A stretch of DNA of 14,003 bases from Candidatus Odyssella thessalonicensis (lineage in GTDB: Bacteria > Pseudomonadota > Alphaproteobacteria > Bin65). Made by a program: the position numbers and the translations under genes. The notes under the pieces were generated by a model. It was not told where the DNA came from, did no database searches, and saw nothing but the letters and a program-made list of their open reading frames with translations. How positions within the stretch are numbered: the stretch's first letter is position 1; every line of letters begins with the position of its first letter. The stretch lies in assembly GCA_005240015.1 (NCBI GenBank), contig SBBV01000492.1, forward strand, positions 1 to 14,003, written 5' to 3'. Positions 1,763 to 11,831 of the stretch are shown here, piece by piece.

Positions 1763-2539
1763 TCATTCAGCAAGAGTGAGCCGCTTCTCCGATTGGTGAG
1801 GCGTCGGAACTTGGTCCCACGTTTTGCCGTCGAGTACCCGACCTGTGCGCTTCTTGTTAACTCCGCCCCACTGCTTGAAGTGAAAAGCAACGTTCGCGGC
1901 TATGCACTGATCGCGGATTGATCGCACCCACTCGATCGGCATCGGTCGTGCCTTTGGTCCACTCTCCCCGCCGGCAATCGCCCAATCGATGCCCCCTAAG
2001 TCGAGATCATCGAGCGGACCTAAGAGCGGTTCCAGGCTGAGAAACTTTACCGCGGCGCGGGTGCGGCGGAGGTGATCGATACGATAAGTGTAGTCACTGT
2101 TCTCGACGCTTACGCCAAGCCAGATGTGCTTCGGCCACGGCAAGAGCGGGAAGACCTCCTCAATCCTCTCCGCCCGCTTCGTGAGCACCTGATACGTGTG
2201 CTGTGGGGTCGCGACCATTGTCGCGAACACCTCCTTAATGAAGTCGAGCGGCACGTCGTCATGGAAGAGATCGGACATGGAGTTGACGAAGATCATCCGG
2301 CCGGTCTTCCAGCGCTTCGGAATGTCGAGCGAGCTGCGGTCGAGGTTGATGTGGCCGTTCCACCTGGCGCGGCCGCCGGACTTCCGGGTGACGCCGGCGT
2401 ACTTGGGTTGGCCCATTGCTTCGAGCCGTGCGGCAAGCCGCATTGCGTAGCAATTCGTGCAGCCGGGCGAAAGCACCGTGCAGCCGACGATGGGGTTCCA
2501 CGTCGCTTCGGTCCACTCGATGGGGGAGTTGCTCGCCAT
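1763..2539 (-). CDS. Three-Cys-motif protein (DUF5131, phage Gp37/Gp68 family)
   Basis: A 258-residue protein recognised by its N-terminal [14 protein letters not shown] and SPGCTNCYA, which give Cys20, Cys27 and Cys30 (C-x6-C-x2-C). Further family marks are the block around [14 protein letters not shown], the VLTKRAER block, WLGVSVEN, the SLEPLLGPL block and [10 protein letters not shown]. The three clustered cysteines suggest a metal or iron-sulfur site, reminiscent of radical-SAM proteins but without their C-x3-C-x2-C spacing; no activity is established to my knowledge. The start codon overlaps the stop of the upstream tcmP gene as TAATG and is preceded by GAGGAGGAAG, so the two are translationally coupled. 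Base composition is clearly less GC-rich than the flanking genes, which suggests horizontal transfer. The family is also found in phages. Confidence 0.88.
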
Positions 2540-3684
2540 TACTTCCTCCTCGGAGGAAAGGTCACCTTCGTATTGTCTCCGAACGTTGGTTTCCCGTGAC
2601 GTTTGGGTCTGTCGTCGGCGGGCGGTTCAGCTTCGATTTTGCCTTCCGCTTCGAGCTCATTCAGAGCGTCTTTGTAATTGTTCGGGATGTAGTTTTTTCC
2701 AAGACTGTGCTCTTCGTAGATTTGCTCCATCGTCTTCGTCTCACCCGCATAGTCATCAAGGAGCATGCGCTTTAACTCGTCGAACTCCGGGTAGAAAAAC
2801 TGCGTCTTCGGCGGCGGGTCGTCGTAGTGCGTGTAGTGTGGAATGCCCTTTGCATCGATGAAGCCCTCTTTCGCCATGATCTCATTCATGATGCGATAGC
2901 CGAGGGGGTGCTTCGTGACGAAGACGAGCATGTGGGTGGTGCGCTTACCCACCTTGAAGCGGAATGGCCGAACGTAGGTCTTGCCTTTGTTCAGCTCTTT
3001 AAGAGCCGCAATCAGCGCATCGAGGATTATTTCCTCGCGCTCATAGGGAGTGTGCTTTTTTGAGGCGTTAATGCCTTGCATCTCCTCTTGCAGACGAGCT
3101 GTCCGGTCTCTGCCGAAGAGTGCTGCCATACGCTCCGAAAAGATCGGGGTGCTGAGCGCTGCATTGATACGGCGGTAGTTGAAAAAGAAAATGCAATCGC
3201 ATCCCCAATTCTTCGTAACGCCTTTTATGAGGTCGAGGGTGAGCCCGGCGTATCCAAACGGGTCGATGAAAGTGAAACAGGGAACCGTAGGATTCTTCAG
3301 GAAGTAGTCGGCGGTGTCCTGACCGACCTTCCTGTTCAAAATAGCGGGCTCGTTTGCGAGCGCGGTGATGCCAGGCAGGCCCTTCACATTTGCTTCGAGC
3401 TTCGCGACGGCTCGAGCGTCGTCATCGTTGAAGATCGTAACGAGGTGCTTCGCAAGAAGTGGCTTCGCGATCGCCTTTCGCAGAACCAAAAGCGGCGTCG
3501 ACTCGGTGCCATCGTCGTACCGGCCGGGACCGCAGTACAAGTCCATGTAGGCGATCTTCTGGCCTAAGCTAATTGCCTTGCTCAGCACGATGTTAGACCA
3601 TGTGTCGAAGTGCTTCGTGATGATCTTGGCCTTGACCTCAGACGCGGGGCTCCGTTCGTCGAAGAACTTATCCACGGCAGGCAT
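2539..3684 (-). CDS. tcmP: Three-Cys-motif partner protein TcmP
   Basis: A 381-residue protein of the TcmP family, named because it is encoded next to three-Cys-motif (DUF5131) proteins, as here. The N-terminal half looks like a Rossmann-type nucleotide or SAM-binding domain: [11 protein letters not shown] at residues 46-56 takes the place of methyltransferase motif I, FNDDD at 85-89 the acidic loop, and FIDPFGYAG at 139-147 a DPPF-like motif IV. The C-terminal part has a [14 protein letters not shown] block, an aromatic-rich linker, and a charged tail ending [12 protein letters not shown] at 3684 is preceded by GGGGGAG at about 8 bases. It is the first gene of a two-gene operon with a 1-base overlap to the partner. 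Two SOS boxes and a promoter lie upstream, so expression is probably DNA-damage inducible. The enzymatic reaction is unknown; methylation is a guess from motif shape only. Confidence 0.88.
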
Positions 3685-4185: not shown

Positions 4186-4308
4186 GAAGCCCACAAAAGC
4201 CCCGCGCCAGGGCGGAAAAAGCCCACAAAAGCCGACAAATGCCGACAAAAGCCCACCTTGTAAAAAATGTCGGCTTTTGTGTGCTTATGTCGGCTTTTGT
4301 CGGCTTTT
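4186..4308. repeat. Heptamer array 2 (AAAAGCC), inverted about a 12-bp loop
   Basis: Copies of AAAAGCC separated by 3-base spacers (CAC or GAC) give a 10-bp period. After a 12-base A-rich centre (4257-4268) the same units run inverted as GGCTTTT. Arms 4217-4256 and 4269-4308 match at about 34 of 40 positions. Transcribed in either direction this would fold into a long imperfect hairpin, so it could terminate transcription of prpE, but the repeated inner units point to growth of a heptamer array followed by inversion. Confidence 0.75.
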
Positions 4309-8458: not shown

Positions 8459-10147
8459 CTAGACCGACCCGGCGATGAAGTCGCCGATCACCGCCGGCGC
8501 CGCGGCGTCGAAGCCCACGACGTCGAGCATGCCGCCGTCGTCGGGGTCGGCGATGCTGAAGCCGTTCGACGTCATGCCGACCACGATGAGCCGCGCGGCG
8601 ATGCCGCTCTTCCGGCGGTAGTCGGCGAGCGCCTGGACCGGATGGATCGCACCGGCCCAGGTCTCGCTGTCGGTGTAGACGACGAACGCGTCGCACTCGA
8701 GCGCGTGGTCGATGGCATAGAGCATCGGCAGCGCGCAGTCGGTGCCGCCGAAGTCGAGCCGCGCGATCATCCCCACCACGTCGTCGAGCCGCTGCCGCCG
8801 CGAGAGCGCGAGCGGCGTGAGGCCGTCGTGATAGCCGATCGACGCCCACTGGCTCCGCCGCGGGCTCTTCCACGAGCCATGGCCGGCGGCGCTGAACGCG
8901 ACCACGTGGCAATCCTTCTCGGCCGCCAGCGTGACCATCGCCATCGCCGCCGAGGCCTCGCGCGCCGCTAGCGGCGTGCCCGCGACGTAGGAGCTCGCCA
9001 TCGAGCCCGAGACGTCGAGCGCCAGCATGATGCGCTTGCCCGTCGCCGGCACGAACGCGAAGCAGCGGTAGAACGCCTCGTCGAGCGCGTCGACGATGCT
9101 CGGCACCGGCTGCCACGCGAGCTTGCCGCGGAAGCCGCGACCCTGCGCGTAGACGCTCTGCGCGAGCAGGATCGCGAGCGGATGGATCCGCGCGCGCTTG
9201 AGGCGGTTCGCGTCGCCCAAGCGTTCGGCGACCGTCTTGGCCGCCGCGTTCTTGGGCTGCAGCAAACCGACCTCGGACATCTTGCCGAGCGAGCGGATCA
9301 TCGCCGTCATCGGCATGCCCTCGAGCAGCGCCTCCCACACCTCGTTGCTGTTGAGGAGCTGCGTCGGCACCGCTTCGCGCGGCAGCTTGTGCTCGACGAT
9401 CATCAGCGCGGCCTCGGTCGGATCCTCGACCCGCGCAAGCCGCTCCGACGCCTCGAACTGTACGAGCGCCGCGGGCAGCTCGCCCTTGCCGTCCGGGCGC
9501 ACGATGCGGTCGAACAAGGCCGCCCGCGCGCGGTCGTCCTTCGCCGCCTGGGGGGGCGCGAGCCGCAGGAGATCGCGGTGCGACCAGCGCGTGCCGCCCT
9601 CGTCGCCGCCGCCGACCGCGCGGCCCTTGTACTTGATCGCCTGCAGCACGAGGTCGTCGAGCGGCTTCGCGAGATACCAGTCGGCCACGGCGCGCCGCAG
9701 GCCGCGGCCCCAGCCGCGAAATCCTTCGACGAACTCGGCGAACTGATAGAGATGCGTGCCGATGCGGCAGACGCGCGGTAGCGCGGCGAGCGCCGCCTTG
9801 CGCGTCTTCTCGTCGCCGGCCGCAGCCGCGATCGCGAGCGCGTAGATCGCCGGCGTGTTCTTGGGCGCGCGGCCGGCCTCGCTGATCTCGACGATGCGCG
9901 CGACCGCGCGCGCACCGTCGGCGTCGACGCAGCGCAGGACCGCGGCCGCGTTCTCGACCGTGAGCTTCTGCTCGCCGATGTAGTAGGTGCCGCCGGCCGA
10001 GCCGAGGATCAGGAACCGATCCAGCCGCGCCCAGTCGTCGAGCGCGAAAGCGAAGCCGCCAGCGCTGTTGGCGACCATCGCCTTGCCGGGAATGGGCTGG
10101 CTCTGCGGCGTCTTGCGCGTCGAGAACAGCTTGCGAAGGTTGACCAT
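8459..10147 (-). CDS. rsr: Rsr: Ro60 orthologue with TROVE and vWA domains
   Basis: A 562-residue ring-shaped RNA-binding protein, orthologous to the animal Ro60 autoantigen. Bacterial Ro proteins bind Y RNAs on the outer face and single-stranded RNA ends in the central hole, and in Deinococcus they form a complex with PNPase that degrades structured RNA. Residues about 25-365 are the HEAT-like TROVE domain, with GGFAFALDDWARLDRFLILGSAGGTYY at 30-56 and the HPLAILLAQSVYAQGRG region near 322-338. Residues about 372-560 are the von Willebrand A domain with a complete MIDAS: DVSGS (Asp378, Ser380, Ser382), Thr469 in GGTD and Asp493 in YTDSETW. ATG at 10147 is preceded by GAGAGG. Nine Y-RNA-like units lie upstream on the same strand, the nearest ending 55 bases before the start codon. 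No rtcB/rtcA genes, common neighbours elsewhere, are present. Confidence 0.93.
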   Translation of the reverse strand: MVNLRKLFSTRKTPQSQPIPGKAMVANSAGGFAFALDDWARLDRFLILGSAGGTYYIGEQKLTVENAAAVLRCVDADGARAVARIVEISEAGRAPKNTPAIYALAIAAAAGDEKTRKAALAALPRVCRIGTHLYQFAEFVEGFRGWGRGLRRAVADWYLAKPLDDLVLQAIKYKGRAVGGGDEGGTRWSHRDLLRLAPPQAAKDDRARAALFDRIVRPDGKGELPAALVQFEASERLARVEDPTEAALMIVEHKLPREAVPTQLLNSNEVWEALLEGMPMTAMIRSLGKMSEVGLLQPKNAAAKTVAERLGDANRLKRARIHPLAILLAQSVYAQGRGFRGKLAWQPVPSIVDALDEAFYRCFAFVPATGKRIMLALDVSGSMASSYVAGTPLAAREASAAMAMVTLAAEKDCHVVAFSAAGHGSWKSPRRSQWASIGYHDGLTPLALSRRQRLDDVVGMIARLDFGGTDCALPMLYAIDHALECDAFVVYTDSETWAGAIHPVQALADYRRKSGIAARLIVVGMTSNGFSIADPDDGGMLDVVGFDAAAPAVIGDFIAGSV

Positions 10148-10202: not shown

Positions 10203-10272
10203 CCGGCCGGGCATGTGTGTTGAACGTGGCGGTCGAGTCTGATCGATAAGCCACGTTCGCCGGCCCGGCTGG
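10203..10272 (-). ncRNA. Y RNA unit 9 (compact, no tRNA-like module)
   Basis: About 70 nt. The closing stem is GCCGGGC (10269-10263) with GCCCGGC (10212-10206). The 5' block reads GGGCCGGCGAACGTGGCTTA, and the 3' block is CAACACACATGCCCGG. Between them GAACGTGGC pairs perfectly with GCCACGTTC, leaving a loop of about 19 nt that starts TTATCGATC. It is the last unit of the array, in the leader of rsr, after the small membrane-protein gene. Confidence 0.75.
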
Positions 10273-10310
10273 TCGCTTCGTCGCGATGCTCGGCGCGCAG
10301 CGCGTTGCAC

Positions 10311-10505
10311 CTATTGGAAAGCGAGATCGAGAGCGCCGGTGACCAGCCAGAACCACGCCGACCCCAAGTACAGCTCGAGGTTGATCGCAGTGTAGAGGTC
10401 GGGCACGTCGCCCTCTTCGGTCGCATCGCAATACGCCCGCAGCCAAGGCCAGGCGCCGGCGACGCTCAACGCGAGCAGGACCAAACTGACGATCGCCAGA
10501 CTCAT
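10311..10505 (-). CDS. Small two-helix membrane protein inside the Y RNA array
   Basis: A 64-residue protein. ATG at 10505 is chosen because GGAG lies 6 bases upstream; a TTG at 10517 would add four residues. A first hydrophobic segment (about residues 3-22, LAIVSLVLLALSVAGAWPWL) is followed by an acidic stretch (DATEEGDVPD) and a second hydrophobic segment (about 50-62, LGSAWFWLVTGALDL), so it probably spans the membrane twice. I do not recognise a family. It lies between Y RNA units 8 and 9 on the same strand; unit 8 ends about 32 bases before its start. A role linked to Rsr is only a guess from position. Confidence 0.6.
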   Translation of the reverse strand: MSLAIVSLVLLALSVAGAWPWLRAYCDATEEGDVPDLYTAINLELYLGSAWFWLVTGALDLAFQ

Positions 10506-10536
10506 GGCGCGCTCCAACGAGATTGGCCGGCAGAAG

Positions 10537-10602
10537 CGGCCGGCCGGGTGTGTGTTGCTCTGGCGGCCAATCGTTACTCCAGGAGCTCTGGCCCGGCGGC
10601 CG
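10537..10602 (-). ncRNA. Y RNA unit 8 (compact, divergent)
   Basis: About 66 nt and the most divergent unit. The closing stem pairs GGCCG-CCGGG (5') with CCCGG-C(C)GGCC (3') with one bulged base. The 5' block is GGGCCAGAGCTCCTGGAGTA, with AGTAACG where other units have GTTATCG; the 3' block is CAACACACACCCGG, very like that of unit 9. CTGG/CCAG closes the inner loop. It has no tRNA-like arms. Confidence 0.65.
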
Positions 10603-10609
10603 ATTCCGT

Positions 10610-10753
10610 GCTGCGGACATGTTGTGCGGTGGAGTTAGTCCCTTGCGGGACGCCCGTGCTCTACCACTGAGCTATCGCTGCCCTGCGGCAGCGAGAGGGA
10701 ATCGAACCCTCGACCCCGGGCTGGTCGATAACCCACGCGCTCCGGCCCGCAGC
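10610..10753 (-). ncRNA. yrlA: Y RNA unit 7, YrlA type with tRNA-like module
   Basis: About 144 nt. The closing stem is CTGCGGGC (10752-10745) with GTCCGCAG (10618-10611). The 5' block is GGGCCGGAGCGCGTGGGTTA followed by TCGACC; the 3' block is CACAACATGTCCG. The effector module is a permuted tRNA mimic: T-arm GAGGGTTCGATTCCCTC (10711-10695), an 8-bp acceptor-like stem TCGCTGCC/GGCAGCGA closed by the 4-base loop GCAG, then TA in the place of tRNA bases 8-9, then D-arm GCTCAGTGGTAGAGC (10672-10658). There is no anticodon arm; the Ro-binding stem takes its place. A short hairpin GTCCC-GCAA-GGGAC follows the D-arm. Confidence 0.88.
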
Positions 10754-10809
10754 CATTTTGCGGGTGACAGCAAGCGATCCGTCCATAGTTCTCGCCGACG
10801 AAAACAGCT

Positions 10810-10881
10810 GGCCGGACGTGTTCGTTTTTCATGGGGTTGGGTGCGTACCTGAAACGCTAACCCATGAAATCCGGCCCGGCC
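10810..10881 (-). ncRNA. Y RNA unit 6 (compact)
   Basis: About 72 nt. Closing stem GGCCGGGC (10881-10874) with GTCCGGCC (10817-10810). The 5' block is GGGCCGGATTTCATGGGTTA, and the 3' block is GAACACGTCCGG. TTTCATGGG pairs with CCCATGAAA, capped by a loop of about 20 nt. No T- or D-arm is present. The spacing and the shared blocks identify it as a Y RNA without effector module. Confidence 0.75.
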
Positions 10882-10900
10882 GGCCGTTTCGGTCGACGAT

Positions 10901-11040
10901 GCGCAGGCATGTTGCGCCGCGGGGCGGTCCTTGCGGACCCCCTTGCTCTACCACTGAGCTATCGCCGGCTGTTCGCCGACGAGGAGGACTTGAACCTCCG
11001 ACCTCGGGATTCGCGATAACCCGCGAGCTCCGGCCCGCGC
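10901..11040 (-). ncRNA. yrlA: Y RNA unit 5, YrlA type with tRNA-like module
   Basis: About 140 nt. Closing stem GCGCGGGC (11040-11033) with GCCTGCGC (10908-10901). The 5' block is GGGCCGGAGCTCGCGGGTTA followed by TCGCG; the 3' block is GCGCAACATGCC. Module order: T-arm GGAGGTTCAAGTCCTCC (10999-10983), acceptor-like stem TCGTCGGC/GCCGGCGA closed by GAACA, TA, then D-arm GCTCAGTGGTAGAGC (10959-10945). A GGTCC-TTGC-GGACC hairpin (read on the plus strand) lies beyond the D-arm. Confidence 0.88.
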
Positions 11041-11077
11041 TGGACCGAAATCGACTGCACCGAGTGTGGCTATCTCG

Positions 11078-11236
11078 AGCGGACATGTTGTTGGTCTGGC
11101 AAATGCCCTCGGCGGGTTCTTGGCCGCCTTGAGCCGCCTGCTCTGCCGCTGAGCTACGACCGCATCGCTGCGGCCGAGAGGAGTCGAACCTCCGACCTGG
11201 CCATTACCAATGATAAGCCAAACACGCCGGCCCGCC
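11078..11236 (-). ncRNA. yrlA: Y RNA unit 4, YrlA type with tRNA-like module
   Basis: About 159 nt, the longest unit. Closing stem GCGGGC (11235-11230) with GTCCGC (11084-11079). The 5' block is GGGCCGGCGTGTTTGGCTTA; the 3' block is CAACAACATGTCC. Module: T-arm GAGGTTCGACTCCTC (11192-11178), acceptor-like stem CGGCCGCA/TGCGGTCG closed by GCGA, TA, D-arm GCTCAGCGGCAGAGC (11154-11140). Additional hairpins (CATT-GGT-AATG before the T-arm and GGCGG...CCGCC after the D-arm) extend the linker. Confidence 0.87.
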
Positions 11237-11470
11237 GGTGATGTCCACGAGTCCGGTGCAATTCGCCACTTGCGGCGGAATTCAGTTCAATCGTTTGGAT
11301 TGCATGCTCGCCTCCTTTGGTTCCGGGCCACAGCGAACCGACCCGGCGGGAGGCGTAAGGGCCCCTTACCGGGCGCGGTTGCGCCGCGTTGTGCGCGCCA
11401 AGCGCACGGATTGGTTTTGACAGCCGACTGGGGCCACGTTGCTTCCTCGTTTCGTCGTCAGATCGTTCCT
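11237..11470 (-). other. Gap in the Y RNA array with serial hairpins
   Basis: These 234 bases have none of the Y-RNA blocks. Read on the minus strand they hold a row of hairpins: GTGCGC...GCGCAC, CGCGG...CCGCG, GTAAGGG-G-CCCTTAC and GGTTC...GAACC, then a strong ribosome site with a 7-codon frame (11282-11305), then AATTC-CGCC...GGCG-AATT. It could be a separate structured RNA, a leader region, or the remains of an insertion. I do not recognise it. Confidence 0.45.
11282..11305 (-). CDS. Possible 7-codon leader frame with strong ribosome site
   Basis: On the minus strand AAAGGAGG stands 5 bases before an ATG that opens the frame M-Q-S-K-R-L-N-stop. The ribosome site is the best in the window, but the frame is tiny. 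It may be a leader peptide or a chance match; alternatively a frameshift has cut a longer gene. No ribosome stalling motif is evident. Confidence 0.25.
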   Translation of the reverse strand: MQSKRLN

Positions 11471-11549
11471 GCGGACGTGTTGCGCGACTGGGTACGTGGG
11501 CTTCGCCCACACCTCCTAAGGGTGCGATAACCCATTCGCTCCGGCCCGC
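11471..11549 (-). ncRNA. Y RNA unit 3 (compact)
   Basis: About 79 nt. Closing stem GCGGGC (11549-11544) with GTCCGC (11476-11471). The 5' block is GGGCCGGAGCGAATGGGTTA followed by TCGC; the 3' block is GCGCAACACGTCCG. TGGGT pairs with ACCCA, and the interior is capped by GTGGGC-GAA-GCCCAC. No complete tRNA-like module. A -10-like TATAGA (11563-11558) lies 8 bases upstream of the 5' end, without a clear -35. Confidence 0.78.
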
Positions 11550-11574
11550 GGGCTGGTTCTATACGGATTGGGGA

Positions 11575-11701
11575 CGGCGGGCGTGTATTCGCGCCTGGCA
11601 CCCTGTGTTGCCACTACACCACGCCGCGCCTTTGCGGCGGGAGGAATCGAACCTCCGACTGGTCGTTGGGAGCGATAAGCCAGAATCGCTCCGGCCCGCC
11701 G
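11575..11701 (-). ncRNA. yrlA: Y RNA unit 2, YrlA type with tRNA-like module
   Basis: About 127 nt. Closing stem GGCGGGC (11700-11694) with GCCCGCC (11582-11576). The 5' block is GGGCCGGAGCGATTCTGGCT followed by TATCGC; the 3' block, GAATACACGCCCG, is looser than in other units. CTGGC/GCCAG closes the inner part. Module: T-arm GGAGGTTCGATTCCTCC (11656-11640), acceptor-like stem CGCCGC/GCGGCG with a short loop, TG, then D-arm GTGTAGTGGCAACAC (11619-11605), a different D-arm class from units 4, 5 and 7. Confidence 0.85.
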
Positions 11702-11717
11702 CGATCAATCCGTAATT

Positions 11718-11831
11718 CCCTTCGGACGTAAGCTGGACTGGGTTTGCCTACCGCCGCTTGCGCTGCGGCGCTGCCCTGCCGGAGCAGCCCGGCCGTCTGA
11801 TGCGCTAACCCAGTTCCTCCGGCCCGAAGGG
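11718..11831 (-). ncRNA. Y RNA unit 1 (first in array)
   Basis: About 114 nt. Closing stem CCCTTCGGGC (11831-11822) with GTCCGAAGGG (11727-11718). The 5' block is GGGCCGGAGGAACTGGGTTA followed by GCGC; the 3' block is GCTTACGTCCG. CTGGG/CCCAG closes the inner region, which folds as two GC-rich hairpins (GCTGC...GCAGC and CGCCGC...GCGGCG) in the place of the tRNA-like arms. It starts at the point predicted for transcription from the promoter at 11838-11866. Confidence 0.78.

Follow-up and report, generated by a model that had tools for sequence, protein, structure and literature searches.

In bacteria studied earlier, the basal stem of a Y RNA binds the Ro60 orthologue Rsr while the tRNA-like or upper part of the RNA contacts PNPase, and in Deinococcus radiodurans the Y RNA tethers Rsr to PNPase and gates substrates, as stated in excerpts of two papers (PMC8394870, PMC4726728). 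In the Salmonella rsr-yrlBA-rtcBA operon, an excerpt on that system places two Y RNAs with rsr on the same strand (PMC7790460). Here we describe an array of Y RNA units on the minus strand (10203-11831) of contig C120, a 14,003-base stretch of a Candidatus Odyssella thessalonicensis assembly (3.52 Mb in 624 contigs, 74% complete) that was analysed as a whole and is hereafter called the window. The array resembles the Salmonella operon by combining rsr and more than one Y RNA on one strand, but it holds eight or nine units, all upstream of rsr, where the Salmonella operon has two. Judging from the sequence, it most likely consists of eight Y RNA genes and one degenerate copy (unit H) that serve the adjacent rsr, and we consider it very probable that the units are the Y RNAs of this Rsr.

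Y RNA units and the adjoining rsr gene

The nine units, A to I, share the core GGGCC(G/A)G without exception, and eight of them (A-G and I) also contain GG(G/C)TTA(T/G)C, in place of which unit H has GGAGTAAC. The 3' block is CAACATGTCCG or a variant of it. The original prediction of nine minus-strand units with a shared 5' core is therefore borne out at this level, the (G/C)TTA(T/G) block being found in eight of the nine. The paired ends of the units, together with these conserved blocks, form a long basal stem, as in bacterial Y RNAs. The units were scored with a detector that combines weight matrices for the two blocks with closing- and inner-stem pairing, its matrices having been trained on 71 regular-expression hits, some window units among them. 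Eight units score 46-57, while 100 dinucleotide shuffles of the array region peak at 30.8. A first detector relying on short blocks and stems was dropped as too loose in GC-rich DNA, and a strict motif search undercounted units. Pairwise identity is only 59-76% among the eight good units (58-76% over all nine); the array is therefore no recent duplication. Tandem Repeats Finder (TRF) listed no tandem array at 10203-11831.

It had been proposed that the closing stem alters its sequence yet keeps pairing, and compensatory change is indeed real: 39 of the 45 outer closing-stem pairs of the nine hand-set units are formed. Shuffling the partners among units leaves 25.3 on average, and none of 20,000 such shuffles reached the observed value. 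Inner stem pairing over the nine units is likewise beyond chance (P = 0.0008). The covariation is also present in homologous loci. In a set of 110 units drawn from the window and the fetched loci, with the 3' block picked by sequence only, 468 of 660 pairs are formed; 500 shuffles average 332 and never exceed 359. Swapping partners solely within loci (28 loci) yields a mean of 296 and a maximum of 310, compared with 376 of 522 pairs observed. From 40 simple units, RNAalifold derived 13 pairs, of which 10 show changes on both sides.

The units are also strictly oriented. In a scan of 957,610 bases from the window and 92 loci (93 sources), the detector returned 263 matches on the rsr strand at a score of at least 36, none on the antisense strand, none in the reversed sequence and one in the complemented sequence. 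A count that uses neither stems nor weights shows the same bias: of 999 GGGCCG occurrences on the rsr strand, 159 have GGNTTANC after them, as against 0 of 539 on the other strand. When units were chosen by GGGCCG and a closing stem alone, GGNTTANC occurred in 63 of 116 on the rsr strand and in 0 of 11 on the other.

A covariance model, R1, was built from 40 simple units, window units C, F and I included. It recovers A, B, E and G, none of which was in the training set, at E <= 1.5e-5. Over 79 loci and the window, 137 R1 matches reach E <= 0.01, every one of them on the rsr strand; the count includes training units of R1 and excludes locus L025. All five R1 matches at E <= 0.01 in the genome itself fall at this locus, the best elsewhere having E 0.18, among the best 150 of 754 candidates that were scored (at most 117 were scored in each genome of the relatives search). 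Such a search of the genome and its relatives had been suggested along with the original prediction, and its outcome is that the RNA is found here alone and tracks rsr: among 41 genomes only this one has both the RNA and rsr, and neither rsr nor the Y core was found in the 40 relatives. The gene is patchy at higher ranks as well, being present in one of the 11 genomes of the order (this one) and matched at E <= 0.001 in 10 of 385 sampled genomes of the class, this one included, with six of these 10 matches at E 1e-37 or weaker.

Across rsr loci in general, 77 of 83 have at least one unit at a detector score of at least 34 (66 upstream, 23 downstream, 12 both), a count from which L003, L005 and L025 were omitted as probable duplicates while L004 and L056, on contigs of equal size, were both kept. 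Of 313 confirmed rsr loci the 80 best were fetched, which tilts the set towards near relatives, and unit counts vary with the detector used and with contig ends.

The gene that these units precede, rsr (8459-10147, minus strand), starts 55 nucleotides (nt) past unit I on the same strand, directly after the units as had been predicted. By its sequence, the 562-residue product is a member of the Ro60/Rsr family, with TROVE (Pfam, 3.1e-40) and Ro60 vWA (Pfam vWA_Ro60, 1.2e-61) domains over its full length. The NCBIfam Rsr equivalog model aligns with residues 2-561 at 516.6 bits, below its cut-off of 900. Structural relatives comprise Xenopus Ro60 (1yvp, 1.7e-121), D. radiodurans Rsr (2nvo, 1.2e-111) and the RO60-named chain 9nen; together with the Pfam domains, the solved relatives 1yvp and 2nvo agree with the earlier naming of the gene as an Rsr/Ro60 orthologue. 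The stretches KYK.R, WSH.DLLRL and DVS.SM are conserved in the alignment of structural relatives, and we take them to hold Y RNA-binding and metal-binding residues. Between KYKGR and WSHRD, at residues ~177-187, Rsr carries an insertion, AVGGGDEGGTR, absent from Xenopus Ro60 and from the consensus of 25 Rsr relatives; it lies near residues that are presumably involved in Y RNA binding. PADLOC returned no match to Rsr.

Several results weigh against reading the array as Y RNA genes of this Rsr. The detector score of unit H, 22, is within shuffle noise. R1 misses D and H, and a filter-free search gives D 8.9 bits and H no full match, although D is backed by the detector and by the Rfam YrlA family (27.6 bits). 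All Rfam matches in the window are under the curated cut-offs, and only 63 of the 116 rsr-strand units chosen by GGGCCG and closing stem have GGNTTANC. A sigma-70 promoter scan found 0 sites and a terminator scan two, not above shuffles, and six of the 83 rsr loci have no unit. The prediction of nine Y RNA units accordingly stands for eight, with detector scores of 46-57, and falls short for H, which is degenerate and recovered by neither the detector nor R1.

Two architectures on a common handle

Half of the eight good units, all on the minus strand like the rest, are tRNA-like Y RNAs: B (11571-11706; detector 49; R1 38.5 bits), D (11075-11239; detector 46; missed by R1), E (10899-11042; detector 56; R1 40.1 bits) and G (10609-10755; detector 57; R1 39.2 bits). 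In each of them a T arm (loop TTC(G/A)A), an acceptor-like hairpin 7-8 base pairs long and a D arm whose loop contains GG stand in permuted order. The Rfam family YrlA (RF02553) matches exactly these four, at 25.1 (B), 27.6 (D), 38.0 (E) and 37.0 bits (G), all below its cut-off of 69. ARAGORN found zero tRNA genes in the window; the tRNA-like modules are thus not standard tRNAs.

The other four are simple bulged hairpins: A (11719-11831; detector 50; R1 30.7 bits), whose hairpin interior is long, C (11466-11553; detector 55; R1 42.2 bits), F (10808-10883; detector 50; R1 50.7 bits) and I (10203-10272; detector 54; R1 44.4 bits), the closest to rsr, with C, F and I in the R1 training set. They match the nematode family RF01656 at 21.6 (A), 24.6 (C), 27.1 (F) and 26.5 bits (I), below the cut-off of 38. 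The two Rfam families therefore divide the eight good units by class, save for a weak RF01656 match to G (19.7 bits, also below cut-off). In the 14 kb, both strands included, RF01656 has no match outside the units up to E 10. Unit H (10532-10602), a degenerate or doubtful simple Y RNA, retains GGGCCAG and a CAACA..CCC end but has no R1 or Rfam match.

The cluster of nine had been presented as a large expansion. Its size is indeed high, yet 8-10 units were also detected at six further rsr loci: ten in each of L070 and L076, nine in L080, and eight in each of L052, L079 and L081. The window, with eight units plus H, is thus at the upper end and not alone. Judging from record titles, L070, L076, L079, L080 and L081 are Chloroflexi (with Anaerolineae counted among these) and L052 Armatimonadetes. 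All six arrays resemble that of the window in lying on the rsr strand and in mixing long and short units. In L076 and L079-L081, however, most units are downstream of rsr while all those of the window are upstream.

Units B, D, E and G share with YrlA a position adjoining rsr, the basal stem, the permuted T arm, the closed acceptor and the D arm. They differ in scoring 25-38 bits against 69 and in occurring in several copies per array, and the GGGCCGG...GUUAUC handle of the window units is absent from the printed YrlA consensus. As for the partners of the Salmonella and Deinococcus systems, neither rtcB nor rtcA was seen among the window proteins scanned; RtcB is encoded on contig C68, and no genome-wide rtcA search was made. 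PNPase is encoded in this genome, in pieces on two contigs other than that of the array.

ARAGORN called at least five tRNA genes (up to 27) in the fetched stretch of 29 of the 80 rsr loci of other genomes. Almost all of these tRNA genes share the strand of rsr and are interspersed with Y units (e.g., L019, L022, L023, L041, L045 and L067), and the titles of the tRNA-rich loci are mostly Myxococcales/Deltaproteobacteria and Verrucomicrobia. Some ARAGORN calls overlap the Y units themselves, such as L031 5780-5855.

One Ro60 protein thus seems, from these sequences, to have several different RNA partners at its disposal, and the presence of two distinct interiors argues for different roles of the tRNA-mimic and hairpin interiors on one Ro-binding handle. 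We propose that each unit would fold by itself. Its closing stem, the expected Ro-binding handle, would contain the bulged C that belongs to the GGGCC / G(T/C)CC block, and an upper stem, GUUA(U/G)C and a variable interior would complete the unit. The units would be cut from one or a few transcripts, and Rsr would bind each of them through the same handle and protect it. The interior may then set the contacts of the Rsr particle, for instance with PNPase, with tRNA enzymes or in ring access, so that the array would fit one Ro ring with alternative effector heads. The genes with their covarying structure, their division into two classes and their link to rsr are observations; the function of any given head is much less sure than the assignment of the units to this Rsr. 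With two clear architectures at one Ro60 gene, it becomes testable whether the RNA interior sets the job of the Ro ring.

This proposal departs from the original prediction, which spoke of a family of interchangeable RNAs; as stated, that idea is not supported, the array being a mixture of tRNA mimics and simple hairpins. One could still suppose that the units are redundant, that their number merely raises the Y RNA dose and that the interiors are irrelevant, since all eight good units have the same handle and vertebrate Y RNAs have been described as redundant in replication assays, in an excerpt of PMC4450293. We regard this as rather unlikely, given that both architectures persist in the window and in other arrays, that four units retain the T arm, the acceptor and the D arm, and that pairwise identity is only 59-76%, as noted above. 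The degeneracy of H and the failure of R1 to find D might also point to a partial array in which some units are decaying duplicates. Covariation of the closing and inner stems over the nine units together, and the paired arms that all four tRNA-like modules retain, make such decay improbable.

Two further explanations address parts of the array. The tRNA-like units could be decoys for tRNA nucleases, in which case the array would protect tRNA instead of steering the Ro ring; a decoy role has been raised for YrlA in an excerpt of PMC7790460, and at least five tRNA genes lie near rsr in the 29 loci mentioned above. Yet the window is without a tRNA gene, four of the eight good units are without a tRNA-like module and, in the same excerpt, the nuclease examined in Salmonella did not cleave YrlA (PMC7790460), so that we find a decoy function hard to credit here. 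Unit I, for its part, might be a cis-acting leader through which Rsr binds its own mRNA and limits its synthesis: the unit nearest to rsr is short in 27 of 51 multi-unit upstream arrays against 20.6 expected (P = 0.024), and the median distance to rsr is 71.5 nt over 66 loci. This bias is weak and its test was not planned beforehand, a leader would leave the other units unexplained, and some arrays are mostly downstream of rsr (L076, L079-L081), all of which renders this explanation very doubtful. Effector heads of different kinds on a shared handle are accordingly the reading that we favour, on the conditional terms given above.

Likeness to nematode stem-bulge RNAs

The nematode stem-bulge RNA (sbRNA) family RF01656 (ceN72-3_ceN74-2) resembles units A, C, F and I in its bulged lower stem, its upper stem, UUA(U/G)C on the 5' side of the loop and its 3' block. 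The window units differ from it by their scores (21.6-27.1 bits vs 38), by being bacterial and by adjoining a Ro60 gene. RF01656 alignments of F, I and C cover the UUAUC-type loop motif (UUAGC in F), the bulged C and the upper stem. The handle consensus of the nematode model, CGGUCCGGAGnnnnUGGGUUAUC ... CCCAnnnnCACCAACUUGACCG, is alike over the whole handle to that of R1, CGGGCCGGAGnnnnnGGGUUAUCG ... CCCnnnnnCAccAACUUGCCCG.

Elsewhere the likeness is closer. Short Y units at rsr pass the RF01656 cut-off in 10 of 33 other loci scanned, which were chosen mostly for short units or arrays (10 of 37 when four unit-free rsr loci are included). The scores are 43.5 bits in L079, 42.9 in both L076 and L081, 41.0 in L027, 39.7 in L034, 39.4 in L053, 39.3 in L030, 39.0 in L038, 38.4 in L074 and 38.2 in L088. 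From their record titles, we take these ten loci to be six Verrucomicrobia, three Chloroflexi and one actinomycetote. Neither RF01656 nor YrlA gave a match at E <= 1 in the four unit-free rsr loci and in three rsr-free regions of relatives.

On these sequence grounds, we are evenly divided as to whether the short bacterial Y RNAs at rsr and the animal sbRNAs and Y RNAs constitute one family, inherited or transferred with Ro60. The proposed family would be defined by the bulged lower stem, the upper stem, the UUAUC loop motif and a 3' CCAACUUG-type block. In the other reading, a Ro60-binding constraint on unrelated RNAs would explain the likeness to the nematode family. The UUAUC motif is tied to DNA replication in animals. 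If the one-family proposal is true, this motif would be older than animals and would first have belonged to the Ro particle; should the shared core be real homology, bacteria would offer a simple setting for the study of a motif required by animal Y RNAs. The bacterial match to the nematode sbRNA family thus bears on a possible shared origin of animal and bacterial Y RNAs.

The broadest form of such homology is disfavoured by other searches: the Rfam vertebrate Y RNA family has no match in the window up to E 10, and the Rfam Deinococcus Y RNA gives one weak match, in L074 (31 bits, cut-off 80). Bacterial Y RNAs are also held not to be homologous with the vertebrate clades in an excerpt of a 2015 review (PMC4726728). 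As reported in the same excerpt, nematode sbRNAs except CeY are not found in precipitates of ROP-1 (Ro) from worm extracts, and CeN72 binds ROP-1 in vitro according to one report (PMC4726728). In the literature excerpts consulted, which did not cover the primary Y RNA papers, no earlier account of such arrays or of the sbRNA likeness was recognised, and a prior description is possible.

Origin and surroundings of the locus

A genome of the same genus (G001) carries acsA, a 169-residue gene and a histidine kinase gene in the window order (3.9 kb, 84% DNA identity), with another gene at the place of rsr. The product of the latter contains an HHHYDH stretch, which suggests a metallo-beta-lactamase fold. 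In two genomes of the same family, acsA and an acyl-CoA synthetase gene are direct divergent neighbours, the matched stretches being 110 and 43 nt apart; in the window, the 169-residue gene, the kinase gene, rsr and the array stand between them. From this synteny it follows that the rsr-Y block was either gained here or lost in the relatives, and that the contig belongs to this lineage.

Relatives of Rsr were found in phage records (341, most from phages of Mycobacterium and Streptomyces) and in plasmid records (51, most from Rhizobium). A record titled Candidatus Bathyarchaeota archaeon (L049) has rsr and four detected Y units, one of them tRNA-like, and may reflect either misbinning or a genuine occurrence in an archaeon.

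The array is interrupted by two larger gaps, of 226 nt between units C and D and of 259 nt between H and I. The latter contains a 64-codon open reading frame (ORF; 10311-10505, minus strand), with GGAG upstream of its ATG and a translation that is hydrophobic in parts. A protein search with it gave two matches, itself and one relative (74% identical over 83%). The C-D gap (11250-11440, minus strand) has a seven-codon ORF (MQSKRLN) with AAAGGAGG before its ATG, along with GC-rich inverted stretches.

Further along the minus strand (1763-3684), a DUF5131 gene adjoins a gene for a three-Cys-motif partner protein (TcmP). PADLOC lists the pair under the candidate defence models PDC-M30A, PDC-M30B and PDC-M41B, and the GC content drops to 54-58% in part of this region. 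By acsA, at 4217-4308 (plus strand), two short tandem repeats of 10-nt units are mutually inverted and form a long hairpin.

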